From Verrucomicrobiota bacterium (GTDB lineage Bacteria > Verrucomicrobiota > Verrucomicrobiia > Verrucomicrobiales > DEV007), in the NCBI GenBank assembly GCA_030625775.1, contig DAOUQC010000055.1:1-34679 (forward strand): a stretch of DNA of 34,679 nucleotides, given 5' to 3'. A program made the translations under genes and the position numbers. Within the stretch, counting starts at the first letter, position 1, and each line of letters starts with the position of its first letter. Shown here in pieces: positions 8,379-27,717 of the stretch. The notes under the pieces are model-generated. The model saw only the letters and a program-made list of their open reading frames with translations, was not told the DNA's origin and did not search any database.

Positions 8379-8382
8379 AACA

Positions 8383-8410: not shown

Positions 8411-8424
8411 AATTTTTCGCTGAG

Positions 8425-11400
8425 ATGGAAAAAGAATATACAACAGATTCAGAAACGGAAGCGGGGCCTGTACCGCTGTTGAATCGCATCGTGCGTTTTT
8501 GTCTGGAGAACAAGTTGATCGTTTTTCTCCTGCTGCTGATGTTCATTGTGGGTGGAGTCATGGTGGCTCCCTTTGACTGGAATACAGGCAGATTACCGCG
8601 TGATCCGGTACCGGTGGACGCGATTCCTGATATTGGAGAGAACCAGCAAATTGTTTTTACAGAATGGATGGGGCGATCACCGCAGGATGTGGAGGATCAA
8701 ATCACCTACCCTTTGACCGTGGCCTTGCTGGGGATCCCGGAGATCAAGACGATCCGCTCTTATTCGTATTTCGGATTCTCTTCTATTTATGTGATTTTTA
8801 AAGAGAAGCCGGAGTTTTACTGGACGCGAACCCGGATTCTGGAAAAACTCAACAGTTTACCTGCCGGAACCCTGCCGGAGGGGGTGTCGCCCTCTCTCGG
8901 TCCTGATGCCACTGCACTTGGACAAGTATTTTGGTACACGCTGGAAGGTCGCGATAAGGATGGTAATTCGGCTCCGGGTTGGGACCCTCAGGAGTTGCGT
9001 AGCATCCAGGATTGGTATGTGCGTTACGGATTGATGGCGGTGGACGGAGTTGCTGAGGTCGCTTCGGTTGGAGGTTTTGTGAAGGAGTATCAAATCGATG
9101 TCGATCCCGATGCGATGCGTGCTTACGGCGTGAATTTGGATATGGTTTTTAATGCGGTGCGCAATTCCAACCTCGATGTAGGAGCGCGCACCATCGAGGT
9201 GAACAAAGCTGAATACATTATCCGTGGTTTGGGCTTCATCGAGAACCTGGATGACTTGCGTCAAACGGTTGTCAAAGCGAGCGGCAATGTTCCGATCACA
9301 CTTGATCAGATTGCCACTATACAGAAGGGGCCGGCCCTGAGGCGTGGGGCTCTGGATAAAGAAGGTGCCGAAGCCACAGGTGGAGTGGTCACCGTTCGAT
9401 ATGGGGCAAACCCCTTGGCGGCGATCCAGGGAGTTAAAGAGAAGATCAAGGAGCTTGAGGCGGGTTTACCGGAGAAAACTCTGGAGGACGGTCGGATCAG
9501 CAAAGTGACGATCGTGCCATTCTATGATCGAACGGGATTGATCAACGAAACTCTGGGCACCTTGAACACGGCTTTGAGCGAAGAAATCATGGTGACCTGC
9601 ATAGTGGTTATTCTTATTGTGCTGCATCTTCGCAGTTCATTGCTGATTGCCATGATGCTACCGATGACGGTGTTGGTGACTTTCATCGCGATGAAACTTT
9701 TCAAGGTCGACGCCAACATTGTTGCCTTGTCAGGTATCGCGATTGCAATCGGGACGATTGTCGACATGGGGATTGTCGTCTGCGAAAATATCCTGAAGCA
9801 TCTGGAGCGAGCTAGTCCAGGAGAGAGCCGTCTTGAAATAATTTATCGCGCTACCTGTGAGGTGGGCAGCGCGGTGCTTACAGCGGTAATGACGACGGTT
9901 ATTAGCTTCCTTCCCGTATTTTTTATGATCGGGGCAGAGGGGAAGATGTTTCGACCACTTGCTTTCACAAAGACGTTTGCGCTGATTGCATCGATCATTG
10001 TAGCGCTGACTTTGATTCCGCCGATTGCCCATGTGTTGTTTTCCGATCGTAAAGGTAGGGGATCCTTGTTGAGTAAGGTATGGCCCGTGATGATGATCCT
10101 TGTTGCCGTGAGTCTGCCCTTCTTTGTAGACTGGATCCAGTGGTGGATGAGTGTGGTGGTGGTGATTTTGGGGCTTTACCAGATATTGCAGCGCAAGCTT
10201 CCCGAGGCCTTGCGGGTAAAAATTGTCTATGCTTTTAATTTCCTGGTGGCCTTTATGGTGGCGATCATGCTGGCCAATCACTGGGCACCACTGGGACCCG
10301 AGAAGGGTATTTATAATGTTGTGTTTGTCGTGGGGCTGATTGGTGGATTGCTTTTGTTTTTCATGGGGTTCATGAAAATTTACGCATCCTTGCTGGGTTG
10401 GTGTTTGAGGTATAAACACGTTTTTCTGAGTGGGATTGTCTCTCTGGTTGTGGTGGGAGTCGTGATCTGGTTGGGCTTGAATCGCGTGTTTGGCTTTATG
10501 CCGGAGTTTGCCCGGAACAACCGGGTCTGGATCACGGCATCGGAGATGTTCCCGGGATTAGGTAAGGAGTTTATGCCTGCTCTGGATGAGGGTTCTTTCC
10601 TCTTTATGCCCTCGACGATGCCTCATGCTTCGATCGGGGAAGCGATGGATGTGATGCAGTTGCAAGACAAGGCTATCAAAACGATTCCGGAAGTGGAAAG
10701 TGTTGTGGGAAAACTGGGACGGGTTTCCAGTTCTCTCGATCCGGCGCCTATATCGATGTTTGAAACCATCGTGCTCTATAAGTCTGAATACATCAGTAAT
10801 AAAAAGGGGGAACGGTTACGTTTTCGATTTGATAAAAAACGCAGTGAGTATGTGAGGGATGAAGGAGGGAACTTGATTGCTGATAAACGAGGACGTCCTT
10901 ATCGTCAGTGGCGGGATGAGATACGATCGCCGGATGATATTTGGGATCAAATTGTCGAGGTGACGGAATTGCCGGGAACCACTTCGGCGTCCAAGTTACA
11001 GCCAATCGAGACGCGGTTACTCATGTTGCAGACAGGGATGCGGGCGCCGATGGGCTTGAAAGTATATGGCCCTACTTTGGAGGCGATCGAAAAAGTGGGC
11101 CTGGATATTGAGCGTTTACTAAGAGAGGTGCCGGCAGTTGATGCGCCCACAGTGTTTGCCGACCGCATTGTGGGAAAACCCTATGTGGAAATCGATATTG
11201 ATCGCAAAGCGATTGCCCGATACGGCATCAGCATCAAGGATGTGCAGGACGTGATCGAGGTGGCCGTCGGGGGACGACAGATTACGATGACCGTGGAGGG
11301 ACGGGAGCGATACCCGGTTCGTGTGCGCTATCAGCGGGAACTGAGAGACAGTATCGAAAGTCTGGGGGGAATTTTGATTCCGGCGTCTGATGAAGCACAG

Positions 11401-12234
11401 ATTCCTATGCGCCAACTGGCGGAGATCAAATATATAAGGGGGCCACAGGTGATCAAGAGCGAGGACACTTTCAAGGTCGGCTACGTGGTGTTTGATATGA
11501 AAGAAGGTTTTGCAGAGGTAGAGGTGGTGGAATCCGCCAAGCGATTTTTGGAGAATAAAATTGAGTCAAAGGAATTGGTGATTCCGAAGGGAGTGAGCTA
11601 CAAATTTACCGGTAACTATGAAAATCAGATTCGTGCGGAGGGGACCCTGATCAAAGTGGTACCCTTGGCTTTAATACTGATTTTCATTGTCATTTATCTG
11701 CAGTTCAAAAGACTGTCGACCACCTTGCTGGTATTCTCTGGCATCTTCATGGCCTGGTCGGGTGGTTTCATCATGATCTGGTTGTACAATCAGCCTTGGT
11801 TTCTTGATGTGGATATTTTCGGGGAGAATTTGAGGCAACTGTTTCAAATTCGTCCGATTAATCTGAGTGTGGCGGTGTGGGTTGGCTTCCTTGCTTTGTT
11901 TGGGATTGCTACCGATGACGGGGTATTGATGGGGACATATCTCAAGCAGTTGTTTGGGGAGAGGAAACCGAAGAGTATCGAGGCTATTCGGGCGACGACG
12001 ATTGAGGCGGCAGTGCGTCGCAACCGACCTGCGATGATGACAACGGCGACGACTATTCTCGCCTTGTTGCCGGTGCTGACATCGAGCGGGAGAGGTTCGG
12101 ATGTGATGATTCCGATGGCGATACCAAGTTTTGGAGGAATGCTGCTGGCGGTGGTGACGGTGTTGGTGGTGCCGACACTTTATTGTTGGATCGAGGAGCG
12201 TAAGGTGAGAAGAGGGGGGGGCGCAGTCGAATGA
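8425..12234 (+). CDS. cusA: Heavy-metal RND efflux pump (CusA-like)
   Basis: Inner-membrane proton antiporter of 1269 residues, the engine of the tripartite pump. HME-RND hallmarks are present: NRIVRFCLENK start, PVDAIPDIGENQQIVFTEW, GRSPQDVEDQITYPLT, a TM4 motif GTIVDMGIVVCEN with the proton-relay Asp at residue 447, and LGKEFMPALDEGSFLFMPST in the second half. It is about 220 residues longer than E. coli CusA (about 1047). Two visible insertions explain most of this: residues about 545-650, rich in hydrophobic helices, and a charged insertion at about 785-845 in the second periplasmic porter domain (KKGERLRFRFDKK ... RGRPYRQWRDE). The LLMLQTGM segment aligns with the E. coli region that carries a metal-binding Met. 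Near the 3' end is an 8-G run (12214-12221). Confidence 0.93.
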   Translation: MEKEYTTDSETEAGPVPLLNRIVRFCLENKLIVFLLLLMFIVGGVMVAPFDWNTGRLPRDPVPVDAIPDIGENQQIVFTEWMGRSPQDVEDQITYPLTVALLGIPEIKTIRSYSYFGFSSIYVIFKEKPEFYWTRTRILEKLNSLPAGTLPEGVSPSLGPDATALGQVFWYTLEGRDKDGNSAPGWDPQELRSIQDWYVRYGLMAVDGVAEVASVGGFVKEYQIDVDPDAMRAYGVNLDMVFNAVRNSNLDVGARTIEVNKAEYIIRGLGFIENLDDLRQTVVKASGNVPITLDQIATIQKGPALRRGALDKEGAEATGGVVTVRYGANPLAAIQGVKEKIKELEAGLPEKTLEDGRISKVTIVPFYDRTGLINETLGTLNTALSEEIMVTCIVVILIVLHLRSSLLIAMMLPMTVLVTFIAMKLFKVDANIVALSGIAIAIGTIVDMGIVVCENILKHLERASPGESRLEIIYRATCEVGSAVLTAVMTTVISFLPVFFMIGAEGKMFRPLAFTKTFALIASIIVALTLIPPIAHVLFSDRKGRGSLLSKVWPVMMILVAVSLPFFVDWIQWWMSVVVVILGLYQILQRKLPEALRVKIVYAFNFLVAFMVAIMLANHWAPLGPEKGIYNVVFVVGLIGGLLLFFMGFMKIYASLLGWCLRYKHVFLSGIVSLVVVGVVIWLGLNRVFGFMPEFARNNRVWITASEMFPGLGKEFMPALDEGSFLFMPSTMPHASIGEAMDVMQLQDKAIKTIPEVESVVGKLGRVSSSLDPAPISMFETIVLYKSEYISNKKGERLRFRFDKKRSEYVRDEGGNLIADKRGRPYRQWRDEIRSPDDIWDQIVEVTELPGTTSASKLQPIETRLLMLQTGMRAPMGLKVYGPTLEAIEKVGLDIERLLREVPAVDAPTVFADRIVGKPYVEIDIDRKAIARYGISIKDVQDVIEVAVGGRQITMTVEGRERYPVRVRYQRELRDSIESLGGILIPASDEAQIPMRQLAEIKYIRGPQVIKSEDTFKVGYVVFDMKEGFAEVEVVESAKRFLENKIESKELVIPKGVSYKFTGNYENQIRAEGTLIKVVPLALILIFIVIYLQFKRLSTTLLVFSGIFMAWSGGFIMIWLYNQPWFLDVDIFGENLRQLFQIRPINLSVAVWVGFLALFGIATDDGVLMGTYLKQLFGERKPKSIEAIRATTIEAAVRRNRPAMMTTATTILALLPVLTSSGRGSDVMIPMAIPSFGGMLLAVVTVLVVPTLYCWIEERKVRRGGGAVE

Positions 12235-12978: not shown

Positions 12979-14841
12979 ATGATAGATAGGAAAATGAAAA
13001 ACATCATTATTGTTTTGTTGGTTTTACTAGGGATCCAAATGCCACTGCAGGCAGCGCCTTTGGATAGCTGTCACATTGTCGACGCCAAGTGGCACCACGT
13101 TCGTAATGTGGAGCCGCGGGAGTGGTCGCATCATCCAGAGAAGGCGGAGGCGAAGGAGTTGGTGGTGGAATTTGATTTGGCGGAGCCGGAGAAGTTTAAG
13201 TTGATTACGCTGAGGCAGAAGGAGACGCAGCAGGTTTGGGTGGTGGTTTTAAATGATAAAAAGATAGGGACCCTGATTCGTGATCATAATCATCTGGAGC
13301 ATGGGATTGCGATTCCGGTGGGATTGTTGAAAAAGTCTGGCAATCGTTTGGTGATCTCGACAAGTTCGGAGAAACCGGACGATATTCTTGTGGGTGAGTT
13401 TGTGCTGAACAGCACTATTCAGACGGAGTTTGAAGGATCGCTGGATGCTGAGGCTCTTTACAAAAAGCGTGGATATCGCTCGCCGCGCCCGGAGTATGGG
13501 GCGGAGTTGAAATTGAGTTGTGTGGATGCGGATTCAGGGGAGGCGATTCCAAGCAGGTTCACTATTGTTGATGCAAAGACAGGTGCTCTGGTATTGCTTG
13601 GTGCGGAATCGAATGATCGTCAGGCGGTAAGGGCAGGTGTGGTCTATTCGCTTGATGGGAAATGCTCGGTCAAAATTGCAGCCGGTCGATCATACCAGGT
13701 TTACGCGGGCCGTGGATTTGAATACGGGCTGGCGTCGGCAAATGTGAAACTCAAACAAGGGGCCAAGGAAAGTGTGAATCTCAAGATTCGGCGTGAAGTT
13801 CCAACGCCGGGTTTGGTTGCCAGTGATACGCATTTGCATACCTTTGAGTTTGATCGTCATGGGGATTGTGATCTGAGTGAGCGTCTGCTCAGTGTTGTTG
13901 GCGAAGGGATTGAGCTGCCGATATCCACAGGGCATGACAAACATATCGACTATCGCAAGGAAGCGGATCGACTGGGCGTGTCACGCTGGCTCACTCCAGT
14001 TATTGGTTGTGAGGTCACCACTAAAGAGGGGCACTTCAATGTTTTTCCGATTGCGAATGCTGATGTGAAACCGGCCCAACATAAAGAGCTTCCCTGGGCG
14101 GAGGTTTTCAAGAACATTTATGCTACGCCGGATGTAAAGGTTTGCATTTTGAATCACGGTCGCGATTTGCACGGCAAGCTCATTCCGCTGGGTCCAAAAA
14201 CCTTCGATGCTGAAAAAGGCATTTTCCTCGACGGACGCGAACTTGAAGCCAACGCGATGGAGTTGATCAATTCGGGTGCTCATATCAGTGACCCGATGCA
14301 AATCGTGCGTGATTGGTTTGCACTGGTCCGCAGTGGGCATAAGATTGCGGGTATCGGCAGCAGCGACAGTCACACCGTGAATTTTGCGATACCTGGGCAG
14401 GCGAGGACTTATGTGGAGTGCGCCGATGAAAATCCTGGCAAACTGGATGTCAAAGTTGCGATCGATTCCTTTGTTAAACAACGGACTTGGGTCAGCTTTG
14501 GTTTGTTGGCTAGACTGGATAAAACAGAGGAAGGAAAGTTCAAGGCGAAGGTGCTGGGGCCGAGCTGGAGTCAAGCCAATGAGTTGAAAATTTTCCGCAA
14601 TGGAGAAGAAGTGAAATCGATACACATTTCTGAGTCAGCGGGTAAAAAGCCAGGGGAGAAAATGACCGCGATTTTTTCCTTGGATGATCTCGATGCAAAG
14701 CCCGACGACTTCCTTTGTGCCGTTGCGACGGGGCCGGGTATCACTGGAGTCTGGTGGCCGGGAATGGTGCCTTACCAGCCGACCTCGCCAGACTGGAAGC
14801 CGTTTGTGATGGGGATCAGTCCACTGGTGTGGGTGAAGTGA
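12979..14841 (+). CDS. CehA/McbA-family PHP-type metallohydrolase, secreted
   Basis: Protein of 620 residues with an N-terminal signal peptide (MKNIIIVLLVLLGIQMPLQA then AP). An N-terminal beta-rich region (residues about 30-270) precedes a PHP-like metal-binding domain. Metal-ligand motifs run in order: SDTHLHTFEFD (near 281-291), STGHDKHIDYR, GCEVTTKEGHFNVFP, CILNHGRDLHGK and GSSDSHTVNF (near 458-467). This HxH, Asp/His, Glu, His and DSH series is typical of the PHP superfamily and the CehA (carbaryl hydrolase) group; substrates of most members are unknown. The C-terminal part (about 510-620) appears to be a beta domain. ATG 12979 follows AAGAAGGGG; ATG 12994 (MKNIII) is an alternative. It lies 113 bases after the DUF3347 gene and may not be functionally tied to metal efflux. 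Confidence 0.85.
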   Translation: MIDRKMKNIIIVLLVLLGIQMPLQAAPLDSCHIVDAKWHHVRNVEPREWSHHPEKAEAKELVVEFDLAEPEKFKLITLRQKETQQVWVVVLNDKKIGTLIRDHNHLEHGIAIPVGLLKKSGNRLVISTSSEKPDDILVGEFVLNSTIQTEFEGSLDAEALYKKRGYRSPRPEYGAELKLSCVDADSGEAIPSRFTIVDAKTGALVLLGAESNDRQAVRAGVVYSLDGKCSVKIAAGRSYQVYAGRGFEYGLASANVKLKQGAKESVNLKIRREVPTPGLVASDTHLHTFEFDRHGDCDLSERLLSVVGEGIELPISTGHDKHIDYRKEADRLGVSRWLTPVIGCEVTTKEGHFNVFPIANADVKPAQHKELPWAEVFKNIYATPDVKVCILNHGRDLHGKLIPLGPKTFDAEKGIFLDGRELEANAMELINSGAHISDPMQIVRDWFALVRSGHKIAGIGSSDSHTVNFAIPGQARTYVECADENPGKLDVKVAIDSFVKQRTWVSFGLLARLDKTEEGKFKAKVLGPSWSQANELKIFRNGEEVKSIHISESAGKKPGEKMTAIFSLDDLDAKPDDFLCAVATGPGITGVWWPGMVPYQPTSPDWKPFVMGISPLVWVK

Positions 14842-15298: not shown

Positions 15299-15330
15299 AA
15301 GAAGCCGCACTCTTTCGAGGGCGGCTTCTT
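15299..15330 (-). terminator. Hairpin terminator of the dhaK-dhaL-lsrF-like operon
   Basis: Perfect 10-bp arms AAGAAGCCGC (15299-15308) and GCGGCTTCTT (15321-15330) with a 12-base loop. Read on the minus strand, the stem ends in TTCTTTTGTTTT, a T-rich tract typical of Rho-independent termination. It lies 54 bases past the stop codon of the isomerase gene. Confidence 0.85.
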
Positions 15331-15384: not shown

Positions 15385-16410
15385 TCAATCCCAACCGTGT
15401 GCGTCACGGACTTTGACCATCGCACCAAGAATCGTGTTCCAGGTTTCTTGTTTTTCGAGAACCTCATTCGGGAACATGCAGCCATCCCAGCAGATGTGTT
15501 TGATGCCACGATCGGGCGCATCTTTCAGCCAGTAACCAGCGGCGCTGGTGATATCCATGCGGCCGTTGGGGTCATCTGCCTGGCAGTGACGTCCGGTTTT
15601 GTCATGTGATCCGGTTCCATGAACGGAGCCATCATTCTGTGCGACGTGAAAATCAATCGTCCACGGACGCAGGGCGTCTGTCATGATGGTGTAAGCGGCG
15701 TGGAATTCCTCGTCGCTGTAACCGTCCTTGAGCAGCGCATCTTCCGGCGCGTTGTATCCGAGCAGGTAAAGGTAGGTGTGTGCCATGTCTGCCTGGAAAC
15801 CCACGGTTTCCGGCATACCGACTTCTTCAAGCAGGTTGACCATGTTTTTCCATGAGTGCATTCCTGCCCAACAGATTTCACCTTCGGCGGCGAGACGCTC
15901 ACCATTGTCTGCAGCGATTGCTGCTGCTTCGCGGAACGTCTGGGCGATCAATTTGGTGTTCGCTTCGCTGTCGCTTGACCAGTTTTCCGGGCTGTCAGCG
16001 GAGTCGATACGAATGACTCCGTATTGGCGCACTCCGTGCTCGTTGAATATTTTTCCGATGCGACAGGCTTTCTCAACAGCCAGCACAAACTTCTTTCTCG
16101 CTTCCGCATCTCCCATGGCGGAATCACCAACGGTGCCGGGCCAGATGGGAGCGACCAACGAGCCAATCGCCAGGCCGTGTTCGGCAATATTGTCGGCCAT
16201 GGCCTTCAGATCATCATCGCTTGCATCCGGATCGGTGTGCGGGTGGAAGAGGAACAGATCAACGCCGTCGTATTTTTGTCCGTCGACTTCGGCCTTGGCG
16301 GTCAGCTCGAGCATACGGTCGAGACTGATCGGTGGCTCGGCGCCTTCTTCGTCGCCGCCTTTGCCAACGAGGCCGGGCCACATGGCGTTATGGAGTTTGG
16401 GTGAGGTCAT
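15385..16410 (-). CDS. TIM-barrel sugar (phosphate) isomerase/epimerase-like protein
   Basis: Cytoplasmic protein of 341 residues resembling the xylose-isomerase-like TIM-barrel family (D-tagatose 3-epimerase/IolE/IolI type). Segments in barrel order include [82 protein letters not shown] and [11 protein letters not shown]. The Glu of AEGEICW, Asp of QADMAHT, His of DFHVAQND and the terminal acidic CWDG position are plausible divalent-metal ligands as in this family. It is the last gene of the operon with the kinase subunits and LsrF-like enzyme, so it likely interconverts an aldose/ketose or epimers feeding the kinase. The start ATG is preceded on its strand by pyrimidine-rich repeats rather than a Shine-Dalgarno site. 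Exact substrate unknown. Confidence 0.82.
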
Positions 16411-16416
16411 GGTGGA

Positions 16417-16444
16417 AGGAGTTAGAAGTTAGGAGAAAGGAGAT
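16417..16444 (+). repeat. 7-bp degenerate tandem repeat (four units)
   Basis: AGGAGTT, AGAAGTT, AGGAGAA and AGGAGAT fill most of the 42-base gap between the lsrF-like and isomerase genes. On the coding (minus) strand this is a pyrimidine-rich leader directly before the isomerase ATG, leaving no Shine-Dalgarno sequence. Confidence 0.6.
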
Positions 16445-16452
16445 ACAATGGA

Positions 16453-17409
16453 TTAAGCTTCGTTTTTGAGATCGTTGTACAATTGGAAGGCTTCAGCTGG
16501 TTTCATGCCTTCGTGCACGACGCCGCGAACGGCTTTCATCATTGGCACCGGAGCGTCAGCCTGGAAGATGTTGCGTCCCATGTCCACTCCGCTGGCTCCT
16601 TGTTCGCAGGCGTCGTAGGCCATTTGCAAGGCGTCGAGTTCAGGGCGTTTTTTGCCGCCTGCAATCACGATAGGAACTGGGCAGCAAGAGGTGACGGTTT
16701 CGAATTCTTCATCGGTGTGGTAACACTTAACAATATGGCAGCCGAGTTCAGCCATGATGCGGGTCGCCATGCGGAAGTATTTCGGGGTGCGTGCCATGGC
16801 GCGTCCGACAGCGGTCACTCCCATCACGGCGATGCCGTAACGTGCTGCAGCATCAATGGTTTTGGTGAGGTTTTGCAACGAGCGGCGCTCGTGTTGGCTA
16901 CCGATGAATACCTGCACTGCCAAAACCGAAGCATTGAGTCGGATCGCTTCTTCGATATCCACAGCGGTGTCTTCGTAGGAAAGGGGCTCGTAACCAGGGC
17001 GACCCAGTTTGAGCGCCTTGCCGTCCAATTCGCCTTCCCATTCGTCCATTGGGCTGATCATCGAAGTTCCGCCGGATGAGCGCAGAGCAATCGCTTTCTG
17101 GGTGCTGGCAGGGATGATGCTGCGTTGGATACCACGGGTCAGCATCAGGCAGTCACAATGAGGTTCCAGAGGAAGAATGGTCTGATCGACACGTTCGAGG
17201 CCAGTGGTTGGTCCCATAAAATAACCGTGGTCAAAGGCCAGCATGATGGTGCGTCCTGTCTTCGGGTTGAAGACTTTGGATAGTCGGTTTTTCAGTCCCC
17301 AGTCGTATTGGTGGGAGCCCTTAAGGAAAAAATCAGGAACCTTTTGAGGAGTGTCAGTGAAGTATTCCTTGTCCTGTTTGTCTGCTGTTGAGGTGTCTAG
17401 ATCGGCCAT
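16453..17409 (-). CDS. LsrF-like class I aldolase-fold enzyme
   Basis: Protein of 318 residues matching E. coli LsrF along its length from memory of that sequence: MADLD start, RLSKVFNPKTGRTIMLAFDH, GPTTGLERVD, LTRGI, PIVIAGGKK and GASGVDMGRNIFQ. The Asp60-His61-Gly62 motif and Lys228 in GCHIVKCYH (position of the LsrF catalytic Lys in QIIKTYY) are conserved. LsrF transfers an acetyl group from phosphorylated AI-2-derived dione to CoA, giving acetyl-CoA and DHAP; relatives are DhnA/FbaB-type aldolases. About residues 119-150 hold a segment roughly 13 residues longer than in LsrF, near the active-site side strands, so the substrate may differ. It is third in the operon, after dhaL. No lsrACDB transporter, lsrK or lsrR is in the window. 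Confidence 0.88.
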   Translation of the reverse strand: MADLDTSTADKQDKEYFTDTPQKVPDFFLKGSHQYDWGLKNRLSKVFNPKTGRTIMLAFDHGYFMGPTTGLERVDQTILPLEPHCDCLMLTRGIQRSIIPASTQKAIALRSSGGTSMISPMDEWEGELDGKALKLGRPGYEPLSYEDTAVDIEEAIRLNASVLAVQVFIGSQHERRSLQNLTKTIDAAARYGIAVMGVTAVGRAMARTPKYFRMATRIMAELGCHIVKCYHTDEEFETVTSCCPVPIVIAGGKKRPELDALQMAYDACEQGASGVDMGRNIFQADAPVPMMKAVRGVVHEGMKPAEAFQLYNDLKNEA

Positions 17410-17456
17410 TTTTTTATTTTAGTTAAAGTGTGTAAAGTCGGATGGTTCTTTGATTA

Positions 17457-18092
17457 TTAGCTATTTATGAAATTTTTCATTGTATTCAAAATGATCGCAA
17501 TGGAAACGGCACCCGCATCGGGGTGGCCGATGGATTTTTCGCCAAGGGTTTTGGCTCGTCCCATAGTGGCGATCATCGCCTTGGAAGCATCGCGGCCTGC
17601 TTCACCGGCGGCGGCTGTTGCGTTGATTGCTTCAGGTAAGGATTGGTCTGCGGCAGCTTGGGCTGCAGTGGCGGCCGGGTCAAGGGCGTCGATCATGGTT
17701 TTGTCGCCCGGTTTGGCTCCGCCCCGATCCATCACGCTCTGTGTTCCTGACGTGATAAGTTCTGCAAGTTCTTTAGAACCAAATGTTCCGGAATCCTTGA
17801 TGCTCTTTCCACCAGCTCTGAAGAGAGTTCCGAAGACAGCGCCGGAAGCACCGCCCATCGAGCTCATCATCGCCATGCCAACATCCATGAATACCTTGCC
17901 GGCCGACTCATATTCGCTGGCTTCGAGTTTTTCCTTGATGGCATTCATGCCGCGTTCCATGCCGACCCCGTGGTCGCCGTCACCCAGTGCGCGGTCGGCA
18001 TCGGTGAGAATAGGTTCGGCTTCGATGATGGCATCGGCCACCTGAAGCATCATGGTTTTTGTTTCTGCGGGTGTGAGTTGTTCTTTAGCCAT
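17457..18092 (-). CDS. dhaL: Dihydroxyacetone kinase subunit DhaL-like (nucleotide-binding)
   Basis: Protein of 211 residues, the ADP/ATP-binding helical subunit of a dihydroxyacetone-type kinase. The signature ILTDADRALGDGDHG carries the three Mg-binding aspartates (D33, D38, D40) that match E. coli DhaL D30, D35 and D37. The later segments SSMGGASGAVFGTLFRAGGK, DRGGAKPGDKTMIDAL and LGEKSIGHPDAGAVS are all diagnostic. In PTS-type systems DhaM rephosphorylates the bound ADP; no dhaM is in the window, so ATP may be used directly or the donor is encoded elsewhere. It is second in the operon, with 42 bases after dhaK and 47 before the LsrF-like gene. The partner sugar may be a ketotetrose or ketopentose rather than dihydroxyacetone. 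Confidence 0.92.
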   Translation of the reverse strand: MAKEQLTPAETKTMMLQVADAIIEAEPILTDADRALGDGDHGVGMERGMNAIKEKLEASEYESAGKVFMDVGMAMMSSMGGASGAVFGTLFRAGGKSIKDSGTFGSKELAELITSGTQSVMDRGGAKPGDKTMIDALDPAATAAQAAADQSLPEAINATAAAGEAGRDASKAMIATMGRAKTLGEKSIGHPDAGAVSIAIILNTMKNFINS

Positions 18093-18103
18093 GGTTTGGA
18101 AAT

Positions 18104-18134
18104 AATTATGAATTATGAAATGGGGAATTATAAA
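18104..18134 (+). repeat. 7-bp AT-rich tandem repeat
   Basis: AATTATG, AATTATG, AAATGGG and GAATTAT run in phase in the 42-base gap between dhaK and dhaL, ending at the dhaK stop codon. The first two units are identical. The length and location parallel the purine-rich heptamers in the other gaps of this window. Confidence 0.55.
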
Positions 18135-19175
18135 TCAAGCGCCCTGGGCGCCTTCGAGCTTGGTGTAACAGATAGATTGACAGGCCATGTTCCAGTGCTG
18201 TTTCAGTTCATCATCCAGTTTGGTGATGCTGAAGGAGATACCGGTCATTTCCTGACAAGTGACCAGAGGACCGACGATGACATCGTAAATTTTGATGCCG
18301 CGTTCGCTGAGGATCTGTTTAGCTTTCCGCAGCGCGATGAGCAGTTCCATCATGGTAGTGGCACCGAGACTGTTGACAAATAGAATGACTTCATCACCTT
18401 CACCGAGAGCAGCCACGTCTTCATCGGCTTCGAAGTCTTTGAAGAGGTAGTCGAGCATCTGTGGAACCAACTCGTCTGTGGTGGTCATGGGGATTTCACC
18501 TACCCCCGGTTCGCCATGGATCCCCATACCGAGGCCGATTTTGTCGGCGTCGATGTCGAAAGTGGGTTTGCCGGTAGCCGGGATTGAACCCGGTGACATG
18601 GAAACACCGATCGAACGGGTCATCAGACAGGCTTTTTTAGCTGAGATTTCCAATTCATCGAGACTGCAAGCTGTCTGGGAAGCAGCTCCAACCAGTTTGA
18701 CAATGGGCACCAGTCCGGCGACTCCGCGGCGATTTTGTTTTTCTGTAGGCGGGGCTGAGGCCACGTCGTCACAGATTAGAACTGTGCGCACGTCGATATC
18801 TTCATCTTCAGCCAATTCAGCTCCAATGTCGAAATTCATTACGTCACCGGCGTAGTTGCCGTAGAGGTAGAGAACGCCCTTGCCTTTATCGACCGCTTGC
18901 GTGGCTTCCAGCACGATGCCCGGAGGCGGTGCGGCAAAGATGTCACCGCAGGCAGCCCCGTCGGCGAGATTTTTTCCGACCAGACCGTGGTAGATAGGCT
19001 CATGGCCGCAGCCGCCACCGACGAGCAGGGCGACTTTTCCGTCGGGAATGTTTTTCAAAGCCAGTGAGCGCTGTCCGACGTGGACGCATTCTCCGTTGTA
19101 GGCGTCGACAAGTCCTTCGACGAGTTCGTCAGCGACTTTAAGCGGGTCGTTGATGAGTTTTTTGAGTTCGCTCAT
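18135..19175 (-). CDS. dhaK: Dihydroxyacetone kinase subunit DhaK-like (substrate-binding)
   Basis: Protein of 346 residues. Catalytic residues known from E. coli DhaK (His56, Asp109, His218) are all visible at equivalent places: GGGCGHEP with His58, NYAGDVMNF with Asp111 and GMGIHGEPG with His220, the residue that binds the ketone covalently as a hemiaminal. The usual GGGSGHEP has Cys in place of Ser here. With DhaL it phosphorylates a short ketose such as dihydroxyacetone; related kinases act on erythrulose and other tetruloses/pentuloses, so substrate is not fixed by sequence alone. First gene of the minus-strand operon, divergent from addB with 184 bases between; a possible promoter is noted at 19218-19248. 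Confidence 0.93.
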   Translation of the reverse strand: MSELKKLINDPLKVADELVEGLVDAYNGECVHVGQRSLALKNIPDGKVALLVGGGCGHEPIYHGLVGKNLADGAACGDIFAAPPPGIVLEATQAVDKGKGVLYLYGNYAGDVMNFDIGAELAEDEDIDVRTVLICDDVASAPPTEKQNRRGVAGLVPIVKLVGAASQTACSLDELEISAKKACLMTRSIGVSMSPGSIPATGKPTFDIDADKIGLGMGIHGEPGVGEIPMTTTDELVPQMLDYLFKDFEADEDVAALGEGDEVILFVNSLGATTMMELLIALRKAKQILSERGIKIYDVIVGPLVTCQEMTGISFSITKLDDELKQHWNMACQSICYTKLEGAQGA

Positions 19176-19359: not shown

Positions 19360-22300
19360 ATGGGAATAGATAAAGAGCAAACTCGGCCAAAACGATTTTT
19401 TCTTGGATGGGATCGGCCAGTGGTGGATTTGGCAGTGGAGCATTTATTGGCTCGTATCGATGGGGGACAAGGGGAGGCGTCGTGGGTGGACTTGTCAGAT
19501 TTGCTGGTGGTGGTTCCGACTCGCAATGCGGGGCGACGTTTGCGGGAGGCCCTGGCGATTGCCGTATCGGACCAGGGCGGCGCTTTGCTGCCTCCTCAAG
19601 TCCGTGTACCAGAGGATTTTCTCAGAGCGGAAAAGGGGAGCACCAAGGTGGCGGGCCCGACGGCGGCACGTCTGGCATGGATTGAGTGTTTGCAGGAGAT
19701 TAATTTGGATGAATATGAGGTATTATTTCCGGTGAAACCTCCGGAGCAGGGTTTTGCCTGGGCGACAAAAGTTGCCGGGGAGCTGGCGCATGCGCGCGCG
19801 GCTTTGGCGGAGGGAGGGATGTTGGTTCGGGATTTGCTGGGTGGTGAAATGGGCGAAGCTCTGCCTGAAAGAGAACGATGGGAAAATATAGCCAGGCTGG
19901 AGACCCGGGTGAGTGAAGCTTTGGACCGGGTGGGACTGGCTGAGCCGGAAGGGGCTAAGATCAAAGCGGCCCGGTCATGGGAAATGTCTGACGAGGTGAA
20001 GGGAATCATTCTGATGGTGGCGCCGGATCCTTTGAATTTGGCGATTGAGGCCATCAAACTTGATAGTCAACGACGGCAGGTGAAAGTTTCCGTCTGCATT
20101 CATGCACCGGAATCATTGGCCGGGGCTTTTGATCCATGGGGTCGTCCAGAGGCTGAATTCTGGCAGCAACGGATTTTGCTGGAACCCGGGGAGGAGCATA
20201 TTTATCTGGCGGCTAATCCGGAAGGCCAAAAGGAAGCCATGCTGGCTTTTTTGCGCAAGCGAAGAGAGCAAGAGAAAATGGCCAGGCATGCGGTGGCGGT
20301 GGGTTGTGCGGATGGGGATGTTTTACCGCTGCTGAGGCGTGGTTTACAACAAGCCGGGGTGGCGGTGTTTGATCCGGATGGGGAGGCATTTCGCAAGCAC
20401 ACGCTGTATCATTTTCTCGCTAATTTTTCCAAACTGCTGAGGGATGGCAGATTCCGGGATTTTCTTGAGATGTTGAGAAACCCTGCCTGGTTGGATTCGC
20501 TGGAGGGACAATTTAAAGAAACGAAAGTGCCAAACGCAGAGGGGCAGTCAACTGCAGAAGAACGAGCTCGTTTTGATGTCGCACATATTTTGCAGGCTTT
20601 TGATTCGCTCTATGAGCGTGTTCTGCCGGGCAGCTTTGACGAGGCCCTGGAGGCTTTGCGTCGTGATCGGGATCAGGACAATGAACACAGGCGACCATTG
20701 CCGGGGCAGTGGTTGGTGGGGGATGCGGTCAAAGTGATGTTGACGCGTTTTCATGACTTGCCCCTTGCGGATGCCTTTGCTGCTTTGCTGGCTGATTGGT
20801 TGGGGAAAAGGCAGTTGCGTCCGGACGAAGCTGATGCCCACTTACTGCTCACAATTGCAGAGCGCAGTCGTTTCCTGGCTGAGGAAATGAGTCAGGTGAT
20901 CGAGGGCAGTGCCCGAATTGATCCCGCTGATTTGTTTGAGCTTTTACTGGAGGACCTGGCCGAGCTTCGTTATTATCCGGGAGACCGCCACGCGAGTGAT
21001 CTCGAGTTGCAGGGTTGGTTGGAGTTACCCTGGGAGAGTGCGGACGATCTGGTGATCTGCGGTTTTAATGACGGACTGCTACCTGCGTCGGTGGTGGGAG
21101 ATATGTTTCTGCCGGAATCAGCAAGGCGCTTGCTCGGATTGAAAAACAACGAAGATCGGTTTGCCCGTGATCTTTACCTCTTGGAATCCATGTTGACCTG
21201 GCGTCTGCAGCGAGGAAATGCAGTGAGGCTGGTGGTAGGAAAGGTGACGGGTAGTGGAGATCTGCTCAAGCCCTCACGCTTGTTGTTTCAGTGCGGAGAT
21301 AGTGATTTGCCACGACGTGCTTTGCGTTTGTTTGCGGAAGACCCCGATTTAAGCGGCGAGGAGGAGTCGGTTCCTGCCTGGAATTTGGCATGGAAACTGC
21401 AGCCACCTTTTGACCGTGCCAGACTGGTAGACAAAGAGCCGACAACGTTGTCCGCAACGACTTTTTCGTCTTATCTGGCTTGCCCTTTTCGTTTTATTTT
21501 GAAGCGTATCCTGGGCATGGAGGAAGTGGATACGAAAAAAATGGAAATGGATGCACGGGATTTTGGCAGTCTGTGTCACAGTGCGCTGGAGGTACTGGCA
21601 GCAGGTTCAAATCTGGCTGTGGAGACAAATTATGAAGAGGTTTGCCAGGCACTTGTCGAAGCATTGGGGGAGGTCGTCAGGCAGCATTATGGACCCCGGC
21701 CTCCTGCGACCATACTGTTGCAGGCGGAGGTGGCTGCCAATCGTTTAAAATTGGCGGCACGTTATCATGTGGATGCCCTAAACGAGGGCTGGCAGGTGGT
21801 GGCAACTGAAAGGGTTTTTGGCAAGGAGGATGGAGAATGGTTGGTGGCAGGGATGCCCCTTACCGGGATGATAGACCGGATTGAGAAAAATACTGAAGGC
21901 CGGTATCGTTTGATCGATTATAAAACATCGGGACGGGCAAGTTCTGCTTTTGAGGCTCATTTGCAGATTTTAAAACGGACGGAATCTGCTCAGGATTTTC
22001 CTGATTGGATGCTCTATGAACTGCCGGAAGATGGGAAAACCTACCGCTGGATCAATCTGCAATTGCCAGTGTATTGTTTGTGGGCTGAGCAGCATCTGGC
22101 AGGGGAGGGCAAGGTGGATTGTGCCTATGTGAATCTGCCCAAGGCTATGGGTGATGGGGGATACAGTCCCTGGCAGGGAGGGATGGACGGGCCCTTGTTG
22201 CGCTCGGCCAGACGTTGTGCCGAGGGGGTAGTTGGACAGGTGCAAAAAGGGCACTTCTGGCCACCGACAGAAAAAATAAAATATGATGATTTTGAAAAAC

Positions 22301-22395
22301 TGGGCTTCCCCGGTTTTGTGGACAGCCTGGATGAATCTGCATTTGAAAAAGTATTTGCCGCATCTCCTGATAAACAGATAGGAGGGGATCAATGA
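19360..22395 (+). CDS. addB: AddB-like PD-(D/E)XK nuclease subunit
   Basis: Protein of 1011 residues. The N-terminus has UvrD-like but degenerate helicase architecture (LLVVVPTRNAGRRLREAL without a Walker A motif), as in AddB subunits that recognise sequence rather than move DNA. A RecB-like nuclease domain closes the protein: TTFSSYLACPFRF, GSLCHSALE (His), GMIDRIE (Asp) and LIDYKTSG (Asp-Tyr-Lys), all intact. With AddA it forms the helicase-nuclease that resects double-strand breaks for RecA loading. Unlike Firmicute AddB, I see no CxxCxxC cluster after the nuclease motif (the tail runs KYDDFEKLGFPGFVDS), so the iron-sulfur staple is probably absent. Start ATG 19360. It overlaps addA by 4 bases (ATGA). 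Confidence 0.88.
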   Translation: MGIDKEQTRPKRFFLGWDRPVVDLAVEHLLARIDGGQGEASWVDLSDLLVVVPTRNAGRRLREALAIAVSDQGGALLPPQVRVPEDFLRAEKGSTKVAGPTAARLAWIECLQEINLDEYEVLFPVKPPEQGFAWATKVAGELAHARAALAEGGMLVRDLLGGEMGEALPERERWENIARLETRVSEALDRVGLAEPEGAKIKAARSWEMSDEVKGIILMVAPDPLNLAIEAIKLDSQRRQVKVSVCIHAPESLAGAFDPWGRPEAEFWQQRILLEPGEEHIYLAANPEGQKEAMLAFLRKRREQEKMARHAVAVGCADGDVLPLLRRGLQQAGVAVFDPDGEAFRKHTLYHFLANFSKLLRDGRFRDFLEMLRNPAWLDSLEGQFKETKVPNAEGQSTAEERARFDVAHILQAFDSLYERVLPGSFDEALEALRRDRDQDNEHRRPLPGQWLVGDAVKVMLTRFHDLPLADAFAALLADWLGKRQLRPDEADAHLLLTIAERSRFLAEEMSQVIEGSARIDPADLFELLLEDLAELRYYPGDRHASDLELQGWLELPWESADDLVICGFNDGLLPASVVGDMFLPESARRLLGLKNNEDRFARDLYLLESMLTWRLQRGNAVRLVVGKVTGSGDLLKPSRLLFQCGDSDLPRRALRLFAEDPDLSGEEESVPAWNLAWKLQPPFDRARLVDKEPTTLSATTFSSYLACPFRFILKRILGMEEVDTKKMEMDARDFGSLCHSALEVLAAGSNLAVETNYEEVCQALVEALGEVVRQHYGPRPPATILLQAEVAANRLKLAARYHVDALNEGWQVVATERVFGKEDGEWLVAGMPLTGMIDRIEKNTEGRYRLIDYKTSGRASSAFEAHLQILKRTESAQDFPDWMLYELPEDGKTYRWINLQLPVYCLWAEQHLAGEGKVDCAYVNLPKAMGDGGYSPWQGGMDGPLLRSARRCAEGVVGQVQKGHFWPPTEKIKYDDFEKLGFPGFVDSLDESAFEKVFAASPDKQIGGDQ
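22380..22385 (+). promoter_or_regulatory. Ribosome binding site of addA
   Basis: AGGAGG lies 6 bases before the addA ATG (22392), inside the last codons of addB. The stop and start share ATGA, so translation is coupled and the two subunits are made in matched amounts. Confidence 0.75.
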
Positions 22396-25300
22396 GCACT
22401 GCAATGGCGAAAATATCGAGTGAGATTATCGAAGCTTCGGCGGGATCGGGTAAGACTTATGCGCTTACCAATCGATTCATCAAATTGATGGTTTTTGGTG
22501 TTCCTGCAGATCGAATAGTGGCACTTACTTTTACCGTCAAAGCAGCGGGGGAGTTTTTTGATGCTATTCTGGAAAAGCTGGCGGAGGCTGCAGGCAGTGC
22601 TGATAAAGCCGCTAAATTGGCGGAAGAATTAGCTAGGCCGGATTTTTCTCAAGCAGATTTTTTGTCGTTATTGAAGGATTTAACACGAGGCATGCATCGT
22701 TTGACACTGGGCACCCTGGATAGCTTTTTTGTCAGGGTGGTCGGGGCTTTTCCTTTGGAGTTTGGTTTGGGAGGAGACTTCACCATGATAGTGGAGCAGG
22801 CTGAAATTGAAGAGATGCGTGCCCGCATTGCTGAGCGTGTTTTTCGTGAAGTGGTTAAAACGAAGCAGGGTTTGGATGAATTTTTGGAAGCCTTCAAACA
22901 AGCGACTTTTGGAATTGAGGAGAATAGCTTTTTTAGAAATCTGGATAAATTTGTCGAGGATTATCAGAGATTGTATCTGGATGTTCCCGAGGGAGAAAAT
23001 TGGGGGAATGCTGCGGCGATCTGGCCTAATGGAGAGTGGGGGGTAAAGGGGGATGGTCGCAAAGAGCTGATTCAAGCGACAAGTCAACTAGTCTTACTGG
23101 CTCCAGATCTCGGGCCGGAGGAAAAACAGCAAAAACGCTGGGCTGATTTTTTTGAAGATGCCAAAAAGATAGTGCCTGGCATGGCTTTGCCAAAAGGGGT
23201 GGCTTACCTGACAGGGAATTTTTTAAAAGTGTGGCAAGATTTGAGAGAAGGAGAAGCCGTCATCACCATTGAGCGCAAGAAGATTGACTTCGATGCCGTG
23301 GCTTGTCAGGCGGCGGTAGATTTTGTCGAAGCGATAATCGCGATGAACTTTGCCGCAAAGTTACTGCGAACCCACGGGGTATGGAAAGTAATTGATGCTT
23401 ATGAGAAGTGTTATGACGAAAGTATTCGCCGCCGGGGGCAATTGAGATTTGAGGATGTGGCGCGGGTGATGGGAGGTGAGAACGGCCTGGATGCAGGGGC
23501 GGGAAATGGCGTGAATTTTGATCTGGCTTATCGACTGGATGCGCAGTTTGATCACTGGTTGTTGGACGAATTCCAGGATACCAGCCGGGTGCAGTGGAAG
23601 GCGATCAGGGAACTGGTTGACGAAGTGGTGCAAGACGGCGAGGGCAGGCGTACCTATTTCCAGGTGGGGGATACCAAACAATCAATCTACGGTTGGCGCG
23701 GAGGAGATCCCAAGTTGTTCAATGAGGTTCTAGAGCAGTACCGGAAGGGAGTGGAACTGCGTTCACTGGCTGTTTCTTATCGCTCTGGCCAGGCAGTGAT
23801 CGATTGTGTGAACCAAGTGTTTGGGGGGCGGGAAATTTTGAAGGGAAAGTTACCTGAAGAAGCCGTGGAGGCCTTTCATTGGAAAGATCATGTTTGTTCG
23901 GGTAAGACTGAAAACCTCTCTGGCTATGCGTCGCTGTGGCATCCGGATGTGGAGAAAGCGAAGGACGAAGATGTGCTGGATTTGATGGTGGAGACTGTGA
24001 GGGAGGTGGATCCCATCGGACGGGGACTTACTTGTGCCATTTTATGTCGGGGCGGCACAATGGTGGGTAAGGTGATGGATCGCCTGCGTGATGCGGGAAT
24101 CGATGAGGTGGATGGAGGAGCCAAGTTATCAATAGCTGAGGATAACCCCGTGACCTTGTCCTTGCTGTCTTTGATCAAACTGGCCGGGCATCCCGGGGAT
24201 CGTTTTGCCTCGGGGCATATCAAAATGACACCGATCGGAGCTTGGATGGTGGCCGATGGAATGTCGCAGCGGCGCTTGGGGATGGAGACTTTGGCTTTGA
24301 TTCATAATGAGGGTTTTGAATCCCTGGTGAAATTGTGGCAGGGGCGTTTTGAGGAATCGGGGGATTTGACGGATGCCTTTGCGCAGTCCCGTCTGCACGC
24401 TTTCCAGGAAATGGCGCGTATTTTTGATGAACGGGGGGATTGCTCCGTGGACAGTTTTCTCAATTTTGTCCAGGGACAGAAAGTGAGCGAATTATCATCA
24501 GGCAATGCGATTCAAGTGATAACGATTCACGGTTCAAAGGGACTGGGATTCGATGTGGTGATTCTACCCGAGTTGGCAGGCAGGAGTAAAAGTCTGCTGC
24601 ATGTGGATGGGGGCTTGAGTCAGGGGGGTGATGAAGAGCATCCCTGGGTGATGGATTTGCCCAACAAGGAATTTCAAGAACTGGATCCGGTATTAAAACA
24701 TCACCGTGAGCAATTGCAGGCAGCGGCTGGTTTTGAGTCTTTGTGCGTGCTCTATGTAGCGATGACGAGGGCGAAGCAGGCTTTGTATATGTTGTCACCG
24801 GAGTATGGGAAATCGAAGGCATTGAATTTTCTGGCGCTGCTAGAAGCAACTCTGAGTGAATATGATGAGGAGGGGGATCGCTGTTCGGCATCTATCGGTA
24901 ACTGTGACGTGCTTGTCAGTTATCAGGGGGGGGAGCGTCACTGGTTTGAAGAAAAGGCCCTTGTCATGGAAGGAGCTGATGAGAGCACCGGTGCTGAAAC
25001 TGAGAAGAGGGAAGGGCCGATTGAATTAGGTCTGGAGGGGAAGAGAGAGCGACATCGTACCGCATCGGAGCATGAGAGTAAAAATTTGGATGCTCAGAGC
25101 TTATTCTTCTCGGGAGGATCTGCCTCGCGGGATTTTGGCAATGAAGTGCATGCGGTTTATGAGCAGATTGAGTGGCTTTCAGGTGAGCAGGATTTGCAAA
25201 TGATTTTACAGGGGATTTTTGCCAGTGAAGAAATACTGGAGCATGTGAGGGAATCACTGAGTGAACCAGGTATTCTGGCGCTATTCACAAAGCCGGATAG

Positions 25301-25616
25301 GGTGACGGAGCTTTGGAGGGAGAAAGCTTTTGAGATACTGATGAATGATCAGTGGATCTCGGGGGTATTTGACCGGGTGGTACTGGTGAAAGATGAGAAA
25401 AGCGGACAAGTAAGCAGCGCGCAGATTATTGATTACAAAACCAGTCGAGTCGAGGGGGCGGAGGACATTGCTGTAGAAGCAGAATATTACCGCTCGCAAA
25501 TGGAAGTCTATCGTGAGGCTCTGGCTAAATTAACAGGCTTGGCCAAAGAAAAAATTCAATGTTATCTGGTATTTACCCAGCCGAAAGTGGTGCTTGAGAT
25601 TAAGTATGAGGGGTAA
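22392..25616 (+). CDS. addA: AddA-like UvrD helicase-nuclease (exonuclease V beta type)
   Basis: Protein of 1074 residues. Superfamily 1 helicase motifs in order: Walker A ASAGSGKT at 15-22, VALTFTVKAAGEF (motif Ia), GTLDSFFVRVVG, LLDEFQDTSRVQW (Walker B, motif II), YFQVGDTKQSIYGWRGGD (motif III), YRSGQ (motif IV), ITIHGSKGLGFDVVILPEL (motif V) and CVLYVAMTRAKQALYML (motif VI). A C-terminal RecB nuclease domain has FGNEVHAVYE, GVFDRVV, IIDYKTSRVEG and QMEVYREA, so the nuclease looks active. It is the motor and one nuclease of AddAB. The gene contains an 8-G run at 24926-24933, where slippage would truncate the nuclease domain. The pair is not joined by a recC/recD homologue. Confidence 0.93.
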   Translation: MSTAMAKISSEIIEASAGSGKTYALTNRFIKLMVFGVPADRIVALTFTVKAAGEFFDAILEKLAEAAGSADKAAKLAEELARPDFSQADFLSLLKDLTRGMHRLTLGTLDSFFVRVVGAFPLEFGLGGDFTMIVEQAEIEEMRARIAERVFREVVKTKQGLDEFLEAFKQATFGIEENSFFRNLDKFVEDYQRLYLDVPEGENWGNAAAIWPNGEWGVKGDGRKELIQATSQLVLLAPDLGPEEKQQKRWADFFEDAKKIVPGMALPKGVAYLTGNFLKVWQDLREGEAVITIERKKIDFDAVACQAAVDFVEAIIAMNFAAKLLRTHGVWKVIDAYEKCYDESIRRRGQLRFEDVARVMGGENGLDAGAGNGVNFDLAYRLDAQFDHWLLDEFQDTSRVQWKAIRELVDEVVQDGEGRRTYFQVGDTKQSIYGWRGGDPKLFNEVLEQYRKGVELRSLAVSYRSGQAVIDCVNQVFGGREILKGKLPEEAVEAFHWKDHVCSGKTENLSGYASLWHPDVEKAKDEDVLDLMVETVREVDPIGRGLTCAILCRGGTMVGKVMDRLRDAGIDEVDGGAKLSIAEDNPVTLSLLSLIKLAGHPGDRFASGHIKMTPIGAWMVADGMSQRRLGMETLALIHNEGFESLVKLWQGRFEESGDLTDAFAQSRLHAFQEMARIFDERGDCSVDSFLNFVQGQKVSELSSGNAIQVITIHGSKGLGFDVVILPELAGRSKSLLHVDGGLSQGGDEEHPWVMDLPNKEFQELDPVLKHHREQLQAAAGFESLCVLYVAMTRAKQALYMLSPEYGKSKALNFLALLEATLSEYDEEGDRCSASIGNCDVLVSYQGGERHWFEEKALVMEGADESTGAETEKREGPIELGLEGKRERHRTASEHESKNLDAQSLFFSGGSASRDFGNEVHAVYEQIEWLSGEQDLQMILQGIFASEEILEHVRESLSEPGILALFTKPDRVTELWREKAFEILMNDQWISGVFDRVVLVKDEKSGQVSSAQIIDYKTSRVEGAEDIAVEAEYYRSQMEVYREALAKLTGLAKEKIQCYLVFTQPKVVLEIKYEG

Positions 25617-25714: not shown

Positions 25715-25748
25715 GCAGCAACTCAAAGTGATTTATCACCACATCATC

Positions 25749-27662: not shown

Positions 27663-27717
27663 TATTCTACTAAGCGGGAGACTAGTTTATATTTATATAA
27701 GTCCCTGCAGCATTGCT

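Follow-up and report, generated by a model that had tools for sequence, protein, structure and literature searches.

Several described systems resemble the locus reported here. In the Lsr system, autoinducer-2 (AI-2) is processed by LsrK, LsrG and LsrF, and E. coli LsrF converts 3-hydroxy-2,4-pentanedione 5-phosphate and coenzyme A (CoA) into acetyl-CoA and dihydroxyacetone phosphate (DHAP). In the D-apiose and tetritol pathways, ketose kinases work with TIM-barrel isomerases and DHAP-type products are formed; we know of no LsrF partner, nor of a class II aldolase/short-chain dehydrogenase (SDR) fusion (aldSDR), in these pathways. Such a fusion occurs as RhaEW in rhamnose catabolism, where an isomerase and a kinase presumably act upstream (Rodionova et al. 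2013, PMC3870299). For the fucose and rhamnose route of planctomycetes and verrucomicrobia, an AraD-like aldolase and lactaldehyde handled inside a microcompartment are described (PMC8857213). Here we describe an operon of four genes, dhaK, dhaL, an lsrF-like gene and a gene for a TIM-barrel protein (hereafter TIM), in a 34,679-nucleotide stretch of DNA from a Verrucomicrobiota bacterium (contig DAOUQC010000055.1 of assembly GCA_030625775.1; the window is this whole stretch). The operon probably encodes half of a pathway of ketose catabolism with five proteins, whose remaining part, an aldSDR next to a DhnA-family aldolase, lies on C134, another contig of the same genome (G000, 96.39% complete). 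Below, G-numbers denote sampled genomes and L-numbers fetched loci.

We regard the conserved set as a variant of known ketose-splitting pathways. With Lsr it shares an LsrF that belongs to the LsrF family by NCBIfam, a kinase acting with this LsrF and, in three distant loci, a weakly LsrG-like protein. It differs from Lsr in that the kinase is the two-subunit DhaKL instead of the FGGY enzyme LsrK, in that aldSDR and TIM barrels are linked, and in that the order sample has no LuxS and the 26 window open reading frames (ORFs) scanned with Pfam contain no lsr transporter, lsrK or lsrR. The aldSDR is the same domain fusion as RhaEW; however, it misses the RhaEW model TIGR02632, DhaKL stands in place of rhamnulokinase, and an LsrF-type enzyme is added, which replaces the class II site in three Opitutales-type loci. 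As for DhaKLM, the covalent His of DhaK and the Asp motif of DhaL are kept, whereas a DhaM-type EIIA-Man domain was not detected in G000, Ser-80 is replaced by Ala, and the kinase is tied to LsrF by its distribution. The microcompartment route is close in lineage, in its methyl pentoses and in its DHAP product; in contrast to that route, no shell gene was seen among the 26 window ORFs scanned, the rest of the genome not having been searched. No description of the gene set was found in a literature search of open-licence PubMed Central papers.

Co-distribution was examined in 112 genomes of the window's order and in 288 genomes of the phylum. In the order sample, LsrF was detected in 78 genomes, DhaK in 77, TIM in 87 and aldSDR in 76. 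LsrF and DhaK occurred together in 75 genomes (phi 0.90), DhaK and aldSDR in 74; all four families were present in 71 genomes and none in 22. In the phylum sample, where 35 genomes had DhaK and 45 had LsrF at E 1e-20, LsrF was found in 33 of the 35 DhaK genomes as compared to 12 of the 253 without DhaK. Counted by genus, 19 of 21 DhaK genera also had LsrF. One of the 33 genomes (G071) shows only a partial LsrF match of 34% identity and has a DhaK with Ser-80, a type described below. In 24 of the 33 genomes, LsrF and DhaK shared a contig and were no more than a few kilobases apart. TIM was less strict at this level, LsrF being present in 14 of the 27 TIM genomes. Overall, dhaK, dhaL, LsrF, TIM and aldSDR very probably form one functional unit. 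An original prediction, made from the window alone, had taken the four operon genes as one pathway, which co-distribution and linkage in relatives bear out; it had also called this pathway self-contained, which does not hold, since aldSDR is co-distributed (76/112) and, in G320, L251 and L253, is encoded within the run.

Linkage was then followed in relatives. The same four-gene run recurs in G327 (locus L175), which belongs to the same genus, and in G351 (L180), from the same family. Partial sets were observed as LsrF-TIM (L181, L182), DhaL-LsrF-TIM (L029, L206, L207) and LsrF-DhaL-DhaK (L178, L179). In G320, a single minus-strand run reads DhnA2-aldSDR-DhaK-DhaL-LsrF-TIM. Its LsrF, 49% identical to that of the window, is of a more distant subtype and occupies the same slot; an alpha/beta hydrolase gene and an IolE-like TIM-barrel gene diverge from the run, and a ribulokinase gene follows it. 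Two Opitutales metagenome-assembled genomes (L251, L253) carry the single run TIM-IolE-AraC-aldSDR-DhaK-DhaL-LsrF. In the order, joint presence is the rule and physical linkage the exception. The expectation that relatives keep the four genes was therefore borne out genome-wide but not as close clustering: LsrF, DhaK and TIM lay mutually within 10 kb in only 4 of the 71 four-family genomes (G000, G320, G327, G351).

More distant loci show another kinase beside LsrF. On a Shinella plasmid, outside the phylum, lsrF and aldSDR share 52.8% and 47.8% identity with their G000 counterparts, and genes for a sugar ABC transporter, an FGGY kinase and a GlpD-like enzyme come after them. This kinase scores best as a xylulokinase and next as an AI-2 kinase, in both cases under the cut-off. 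Similarly, two LsrF loci from genomes without DhaK (L133, L134) carry FGGY kinases of one cluster instead, the L133 enzyme being rhamnulokinase-like (346.9 bits, under the cut-off of 527.95). We read these loci as one core, LsrF plus SDR, served either by DhaKL or by an FGGY kinase. Two rhizobial plasmid loci, L244 (H23, with a class I FBA-like gene) and L245 (H43, with DhaKL), are sugar or polyol loci and have no annotated LsrF or aldSDR.

The window TIM matches AP_endonuc_2 (PF01261) at 46 bits (Pfam cut-off 31.1) and has conserved acidic and His residues. It had no match in NCBIfam, none in PDB sequences at E 0.1, and none in the plasmid collection. An AlphaFold2 model (pLDDT 86.3) aligned with the structures of IolE, IolI and tagatose 3-epimerase at Z of about 23, the top ones being tied within 1 Z unit; the top Foldseek match was the hydratase AtHYD, at 14% identity. 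Of the 87 TIM genomes of the order, 83 carry DhaK or else a strong kinase match of the rhamnulokinase-like type, which fits TIM as the supplier of a ketose to a kinase. That TIM is instead a separate sugar enzyme, placed in the operon by accident, with only DhaK, DhaL and LsrF (plus aldSDR) making up the pathway, would account for the 13 of 27 TIM genomes of the phylum sample that lack LsrF. The same holds for TIM loci in named genomes (best 80 of 582, mostly titled as Verrucomicrobiota or Planctomycetota groups, some stretches being short): LsrF is missing from the fetched stretch in 75 of these 80, and the commonest recognised neighbour is c9, a protein of an unrelated family. This explanation is nevertheless quite unlikely. 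TIM lies beside LsrF, or in a run with both aldSDR and DhaK, in f1 (L175, L180, L181, L182, L224), in f3 (L029, L206, L207), in Opitutales (L251, L253) and in L028, from the window's class, and it is present in 74 of the 77 DhaK genomes of the order. The c9 protein itself is about 430 residues long and occurs at L246, L254 and other loci; one member was scanned and gave no Pfam or NCBIfam match.

In the kinase, the window DhaK aligns with His-56, Asp-109 and the covalent His-218 of E. coli DhaK, and the window DhaL aligns with the GDxDHG motif. DhaL passes the equivalog model TIGR02365 (179.4 bits, cut-off 138.3), whereas DhaK misses TIGR02363 (320.9 bits, cut-off 406.25). A search for the EIIA-Man/DhaM domain (PF03610) gave no match in G000 and was positive in 5 of 14 control genomes. 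Therefore DhaKL likely uses ATP, and an ordinary PTS-dependent DhaKLM was rejected. At the position of E. coli Ser-80, which we take to be a substrate-pocket residue, the window DhaK has Ala. Among the DhaK rows of the tree set, all 23 from genomes with a clear LsrF have Ala, and six others have Ser: L142 (G071), L143 and L144, from the phylum and without a clear LsrF, one rhizobial DhaK, and the E. coli and L. lactis proteins. A role for Ser-80 was not found in the literature searched, passages of PMC6429413 included. An Ala in LsrF-bearing genomes is what a changed DhaK substrate would predict.

These data also bear on whether DhaKL is an ordinary dihydroxyacetone kinase, which would rescue dihydroxyacetone freed by an aldolase from an unphosphorylated ketose and be linked to LsrF indirectly. 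All compared catalytic residues are conserved, and dihydroxyacetone is the textbook substrate. We consider this very unlikely, because DhaK without LsrF is rare (2 of the 35 DhaK genomes of the phylum sample, 3 if G071 is uncounted), because the DhaK equivalog model is missed and Ala at Ser-80 goes with LsrF, and because an FGGY kinase replaces DhaK in the L133, L134 and Shinella plasmid clusters.

The window LsrF passes the LsrF equivalog PRK08227 well above its cut-off (297 bits; Table 1). Its active-site Lys aligns with that of 3gkf, 3glc and 4p2v, the E. coli entry 4p2v having Ala at the position; in our alignment A1 it is K207 and is invariant in 24 sequences. Thus the catalytic Lys and the ketone-binding His pointed out at the start are both kept. 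Relative to E. coli LsrF, the window protein carries about 21 extra residues behind residue 121. This insert is common to L128 and L130; most other rows of A1 have none, and L029 has one of only 1-2 residues. The Tyr of the YPRG motif is the proton donor of archaeal class I fructose-bisphosphate (FBP) aldolase, and it aligns with Val in the window LsrF. An archaeal-type FBP aldolase identity was considered for this protein and is unlikely, given the PRK08227 score and the missing Tyr. Two f3 genomes each have a pair of oppositely oriented LsrF genes, which score almost the same and are about 6.5 kb apart (G304:C1:842286-849740 and G340:C11:52167-59566). A second, distant LsrF-DhaL-DhaK subtype occurs at L110, L116 and L118-L122, with no aldSDR recognised within the fetched stretch.

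In the distant locus L112, the gene that comes right after dhaK encodes, by simple ORF calls, an ABM protein resembling LsrG. The only NCBIfam match of this protein is LsrG (7.3e-6), at 26.4 bits where the cut-off is 135, and its cluster also occurs in L113 and L117. A further cluster, c10 (L108:9950-10267 and five other loci), consists of proteins of 103-106 residues beside DhaK, at the place where L112 has its LsrG-like protein; the one member scanned had no Pfam or NCBIfam match, and by position it is a candidate isomerase. The LsrG-like protein after DhaK in L112, and an LsrF above the curated cut-off, would be expected if DhaKL stood in for LsrK and the operon processed AI-2, or a dione resembling it, taken up from other bacteria. 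LuxS was detected in none of the 112 order genomes, G000 included, and in 5 of the 14 controls. The 26 window ORFs scanned include no FGGY kinase, no regulator and no transporter of the sugar type, no search for uptake genes having been made in the rest of the genome, and linkage is instead to aldSDR, other TIM barrels and sulfatases. This makes AI-2 processing highly improbable; AI-2 itself, one of the substrates initially put forward, is unlikely in view of LuxS at 0/112 with positive controls. The tetrulose and apiulose put forward with it gained no support, nor did any result speak against them.

The fifth partner, aldSDR, was first met among the neighbours of distant DhaK-LsrF loci. In G000 it lies on a contig separate from the operon (L223). 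It misses TIGR02632 (413.7 bits, cut-off 567.75) and passes the aldolase/SDR model PRK08324.2-4 (853.1 bits, cut-off 831). It keeps the class II His motifs DHTHAD and MNHGIF, and the SDR motif YSCAK. Directly upstream, at the end of C134, is a second gene for a class I aldolase, of the DhnA family. Its product is under every NCBIfam cut-off, and its relatives adjoin aldSDR or are near it in G327, G347 and G320.

We aligned 29 aldSDR proteins of more than 500 residues. The class II metal-binding His residues are kept in 26 of them. In the other three (L028, L251, L253) all are lost, YSCAK is kept, and LsrF is encoded at the same locus. Therefore, in those runs LsrF is likely the only intact candidate for C-C cleavage. 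An SDR relative and LsrF were found together in 14 fetched loci (L028, L112, L113, L114, L117, L126, L127, L133, L134, L145, L146, L147, L174, L224). In seven of these (L126, L127, L133, L134, L145, L146, L147) the SDR protein is too short for an aldolase part (257-406 residues), the copy in L146 being at a contig end. A separate class II aldolase gene lies near the short SDR in L133 and L134, so that the cleavage activity need not be missing there. Overall, LsrF is probably the cleaving enzyme.

In the reading that we favour, to which as a whole we give a probability of about 45%, a ketose would be phosphorylated by DhaKL, oxidised by aldSDR and cleaved by LsrF to DHAP and an acyl product. 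TIM would isomerise or epimerise a sugar to the ketose. DhaKL, with ATP, would phosphorylate C1, the CH2OH beside the C2 carbonyl. The NAD-dependent SDR part of aldSDR would then oxidise the C4 hydroxyl, giving a 2,4-diketo-3-hydroxy 1-phosphate, and the LsrF-family enzyme would split the C3-C4 bond to release DHAP and the acyl product, as acyl-CoA if the reaction is thiolytic. For a 6-deoxyhexose, the products would be DHAP and either lactoyl-CoA or lactate. Gene content, co-distribution, linkage and active-site residues were observed directly. The original scheme of phosphorylation followed by LsrF-type cleavage to DHAP stands as a reasonable core of this pathway, but it missed the oxidation step now ascribed to aldSDR.

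We infer the order of the steps, the position of the oxidation, CoA as acceptor and the identity of the sugar. That oxidation precedes cleavage is proposed tentatively, at slightly under even odds. The substrate of E. coli LsrF is formally a C4-oxidised 5-deoxypentulose 1-phosphate; a C4 dehydrogenase would therefore supply a substrate of the LsrF type, and the chemistry would transfer directly. The recurrent SDR partner, the LsrG-like neighbour and the NAD+ dependence of RhaEW support this order. RhaEW without NAD+ formed neither DHAP nor lactate from L-rhamnulose 1-phosphate (PMC3870299), an effect in which its authors see one domain depending on the other.

A plainer order would have the TIM isomerase and the DhaKL ketose kinase followed by LsrF acting as a class I retro-aldolase, giving DHAP and an aldehyde that the SDR part of aldSDR oxidises. 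For a 6-deoxyhexose this aldehyde would be lactaldehyde, as in the scheme proposed for RhaEW, which is described as a rhamnulose-1-phosphate aldolase joined to a lactaldehyde dehydrogenase (PMC3870299). LsrF falls within the DeoC/LacD aldolase family, and the class II losses in L028, L251 and L253 fit equally well with LsrF taking over aldol cleavage. This order explains the same genes as oxidation before cleavage and is a close rival. However, the Val in place of the YPRG Tyr speaks against it. An independent aldolase would also sit oddly with the lack of DHAP from RhaEW when NAD+ was absent (PMC3870299). Furthermore, the class II residues kept beside LsrF in 21 of 21 aligned loci of the order would be redundant, and the LsrG-like neighbour points weakly to a dione. 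We therefore regard the retro-aldol order as somewhat unlikely.

As to the sugar, a 6-deoxyhexose of the L-fucose or L-rhamnose type is our best guess, made with reserve. It comes from the resemblance of aldSDR to RhaEW, from the rarity of rhamnulokinase-like kinases together with DhaK, and from the sulfatases and GH95 enzyme beside distant operons. Rhamnulokinase-like FGGY kinases (E < 1e-100, none above the family cut-off) occur in 12 of the 112 order genomes, only 2 of which have DhaK. In L251 and L253 the operon has sulfatases on both sides; in L112 it is followed by a GH95 enzyme and a sulfatase. These pointers are circumstantial and, with a ribulokinase gene after the G320 run, pentuloses may also be substrates.

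Several observations weigh against the order kinase, dehydrogenase, LsrF. Among order genomes holding both members of a pair, linkage within 10 kb is infrequent: LsrF-TIM 12/75, LsrF-DhaK 10/75, DhaK-aldSDR 5/74 and LsrF-aldSDR 1/73. Among the best 80 of 582 named TIM loci, LsrF is within the fetched stretch in only 5 and c9 in 28. The genomes of one order are not independent, and most of the listed absences come from one small-genome genus (g2), so that the p-values for co-distribution are too favourable. The class II His residues are kept in 21 of 21 aligned loci of the order (L223-L243), G000 included, and G000 holds up to three possible cleaving enzymes, namely LsrF, aldSDR and the DhnA-family aldolase. 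Outside L112, L113 and L117, no LsrG-like gene was recognised. The DhaK tree allows a single origin for Ala-80 (support 79/91); Ala-80 may thus mark a DhaK subfamily, perhaps one event, rather than repeated adaptation. Sulfatases are common in these genomes, one being present in the window too, and are weak evidence for the sugar.

At the locus, the four genes are all on the minus strand, with intergenic gaps of 42, 47 and 42 bases by ORF coordinates, and their Dak1, Dak2, DeoC/LacD and AP_endonuc_2 matches all exceed the Pfam cut-offs. The features are collected in Table 1. A terminator hairpin about 54 bases beyond the TIM stop folds at -21.7 kcal/mol as compared to a mean of -7.99 for shuffled sequences (z -6.23; 0 of 200 shuffles equal it). 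A simple consensus scan did not list this hairpin at 15299-15330, and returned 5 sites in the region against a shuffle mean of 6.0. Thus the gene order, the gaps and the single terminator first described agree with ORF coordinates and RNA fold. Pfam scans of the 26 window ORFs detected neither a sugar transporter nor an FGGY kinase nor a transcription regulator. Upstream of dhaK is an AddB-like gene on the opposite strand, then a UvrD-helicase/nuclease gene, and downstream, beyond the terminator, is a 122-residue ORF with no Pfam match; with these flanks, the absence of an adjacent transporter or regulator is confirmed.

Table 1. Features of the operon, its window and the aldSDR locus (window positions unless a contig or locus is given).
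Feature	Position	Strand	Evidence
dhaK-type substrate-binding kinase subunit, 346 aa, first gene of the operon	18135-19175	-	Dak1 341.2 bits, 5.7e-102
dhaL-type nucleotide-binding kinase subunit, 211 aa	17457-18092	-	Dak2 172.4 bits, 1.1e-50
LsrF-family thiolase/aldolase, 318 aa	16453-17409	-	PRK08227 415.5 bits; DeoC/LacD 66 bits
PF01261 TIM-barrel isomerase/epimerase-fold protein, 341 aa, last gene of the operon	15385-16410	-	AP_endonuc_2 46 bits
Intrinsic terminator: 10-bp stem, short inner stem, U-rich tail	15299-15330	-	RNA fold
ORF, 122 aa	14869-15237		no Pfam match
Outer membrane efflux protein, CusB/HlyD-type fusion protein with heavy-metal-binding domains, AcrB-family pump; probable metal efflux set	5146-12234	+	
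CehA/McbA-like metallohydrolase	12979-14841	+	71.6 bits, under cut-off 80
AddB-like PD-(D/E)XK protein; AddAB-like pair with the next	19360-22395	+	
UvrD-helicase/PD-(D/E)XK protein, overlapping the previous gene	22392-25616	+	
Phenol-degradation-type outer membrane protein and sulfatase, a DUF3604 protein on each side	25713-32204	+	
aldSDR	C134:69487-71481		PRK08324.2-4 853.1 bits
DhnA-family class I aldolase	L223:11037-11912		under every NCBIfam cut-off

If the favoured pathway is true, it would give a function to a gene set present in 71 of the 112 sampled genomes of one order. The range of DhaKL would widen beyond dihydroxyacetone, and LsrF, known from quorum-signal turnover, would join ordinary sugar catabolism. 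A route in which oxidation comes first would avoid lactaldehyde, and would thus be a second answer, besides microcompartments, to lactaldehyde toxicity during growth on fucose or rhamnose. A bolder version, which we consider unlikely, would make this a shell-free and lactaldehyde-free methyl-pentose route. DhaKL would be a dedicated 6-deoxyketose kinase, aldSDR would oxidise C4 and LsrF would yield DHAP and lactoyl-CoA; the LsrF of AI-2 turnover would be an offshoot of an older sugar retro-Claisen enzyme, and the NAD+ requirement of RhaEW would have the same cause. Such a reading would join AI-2 chemistry to sugar catabolism.

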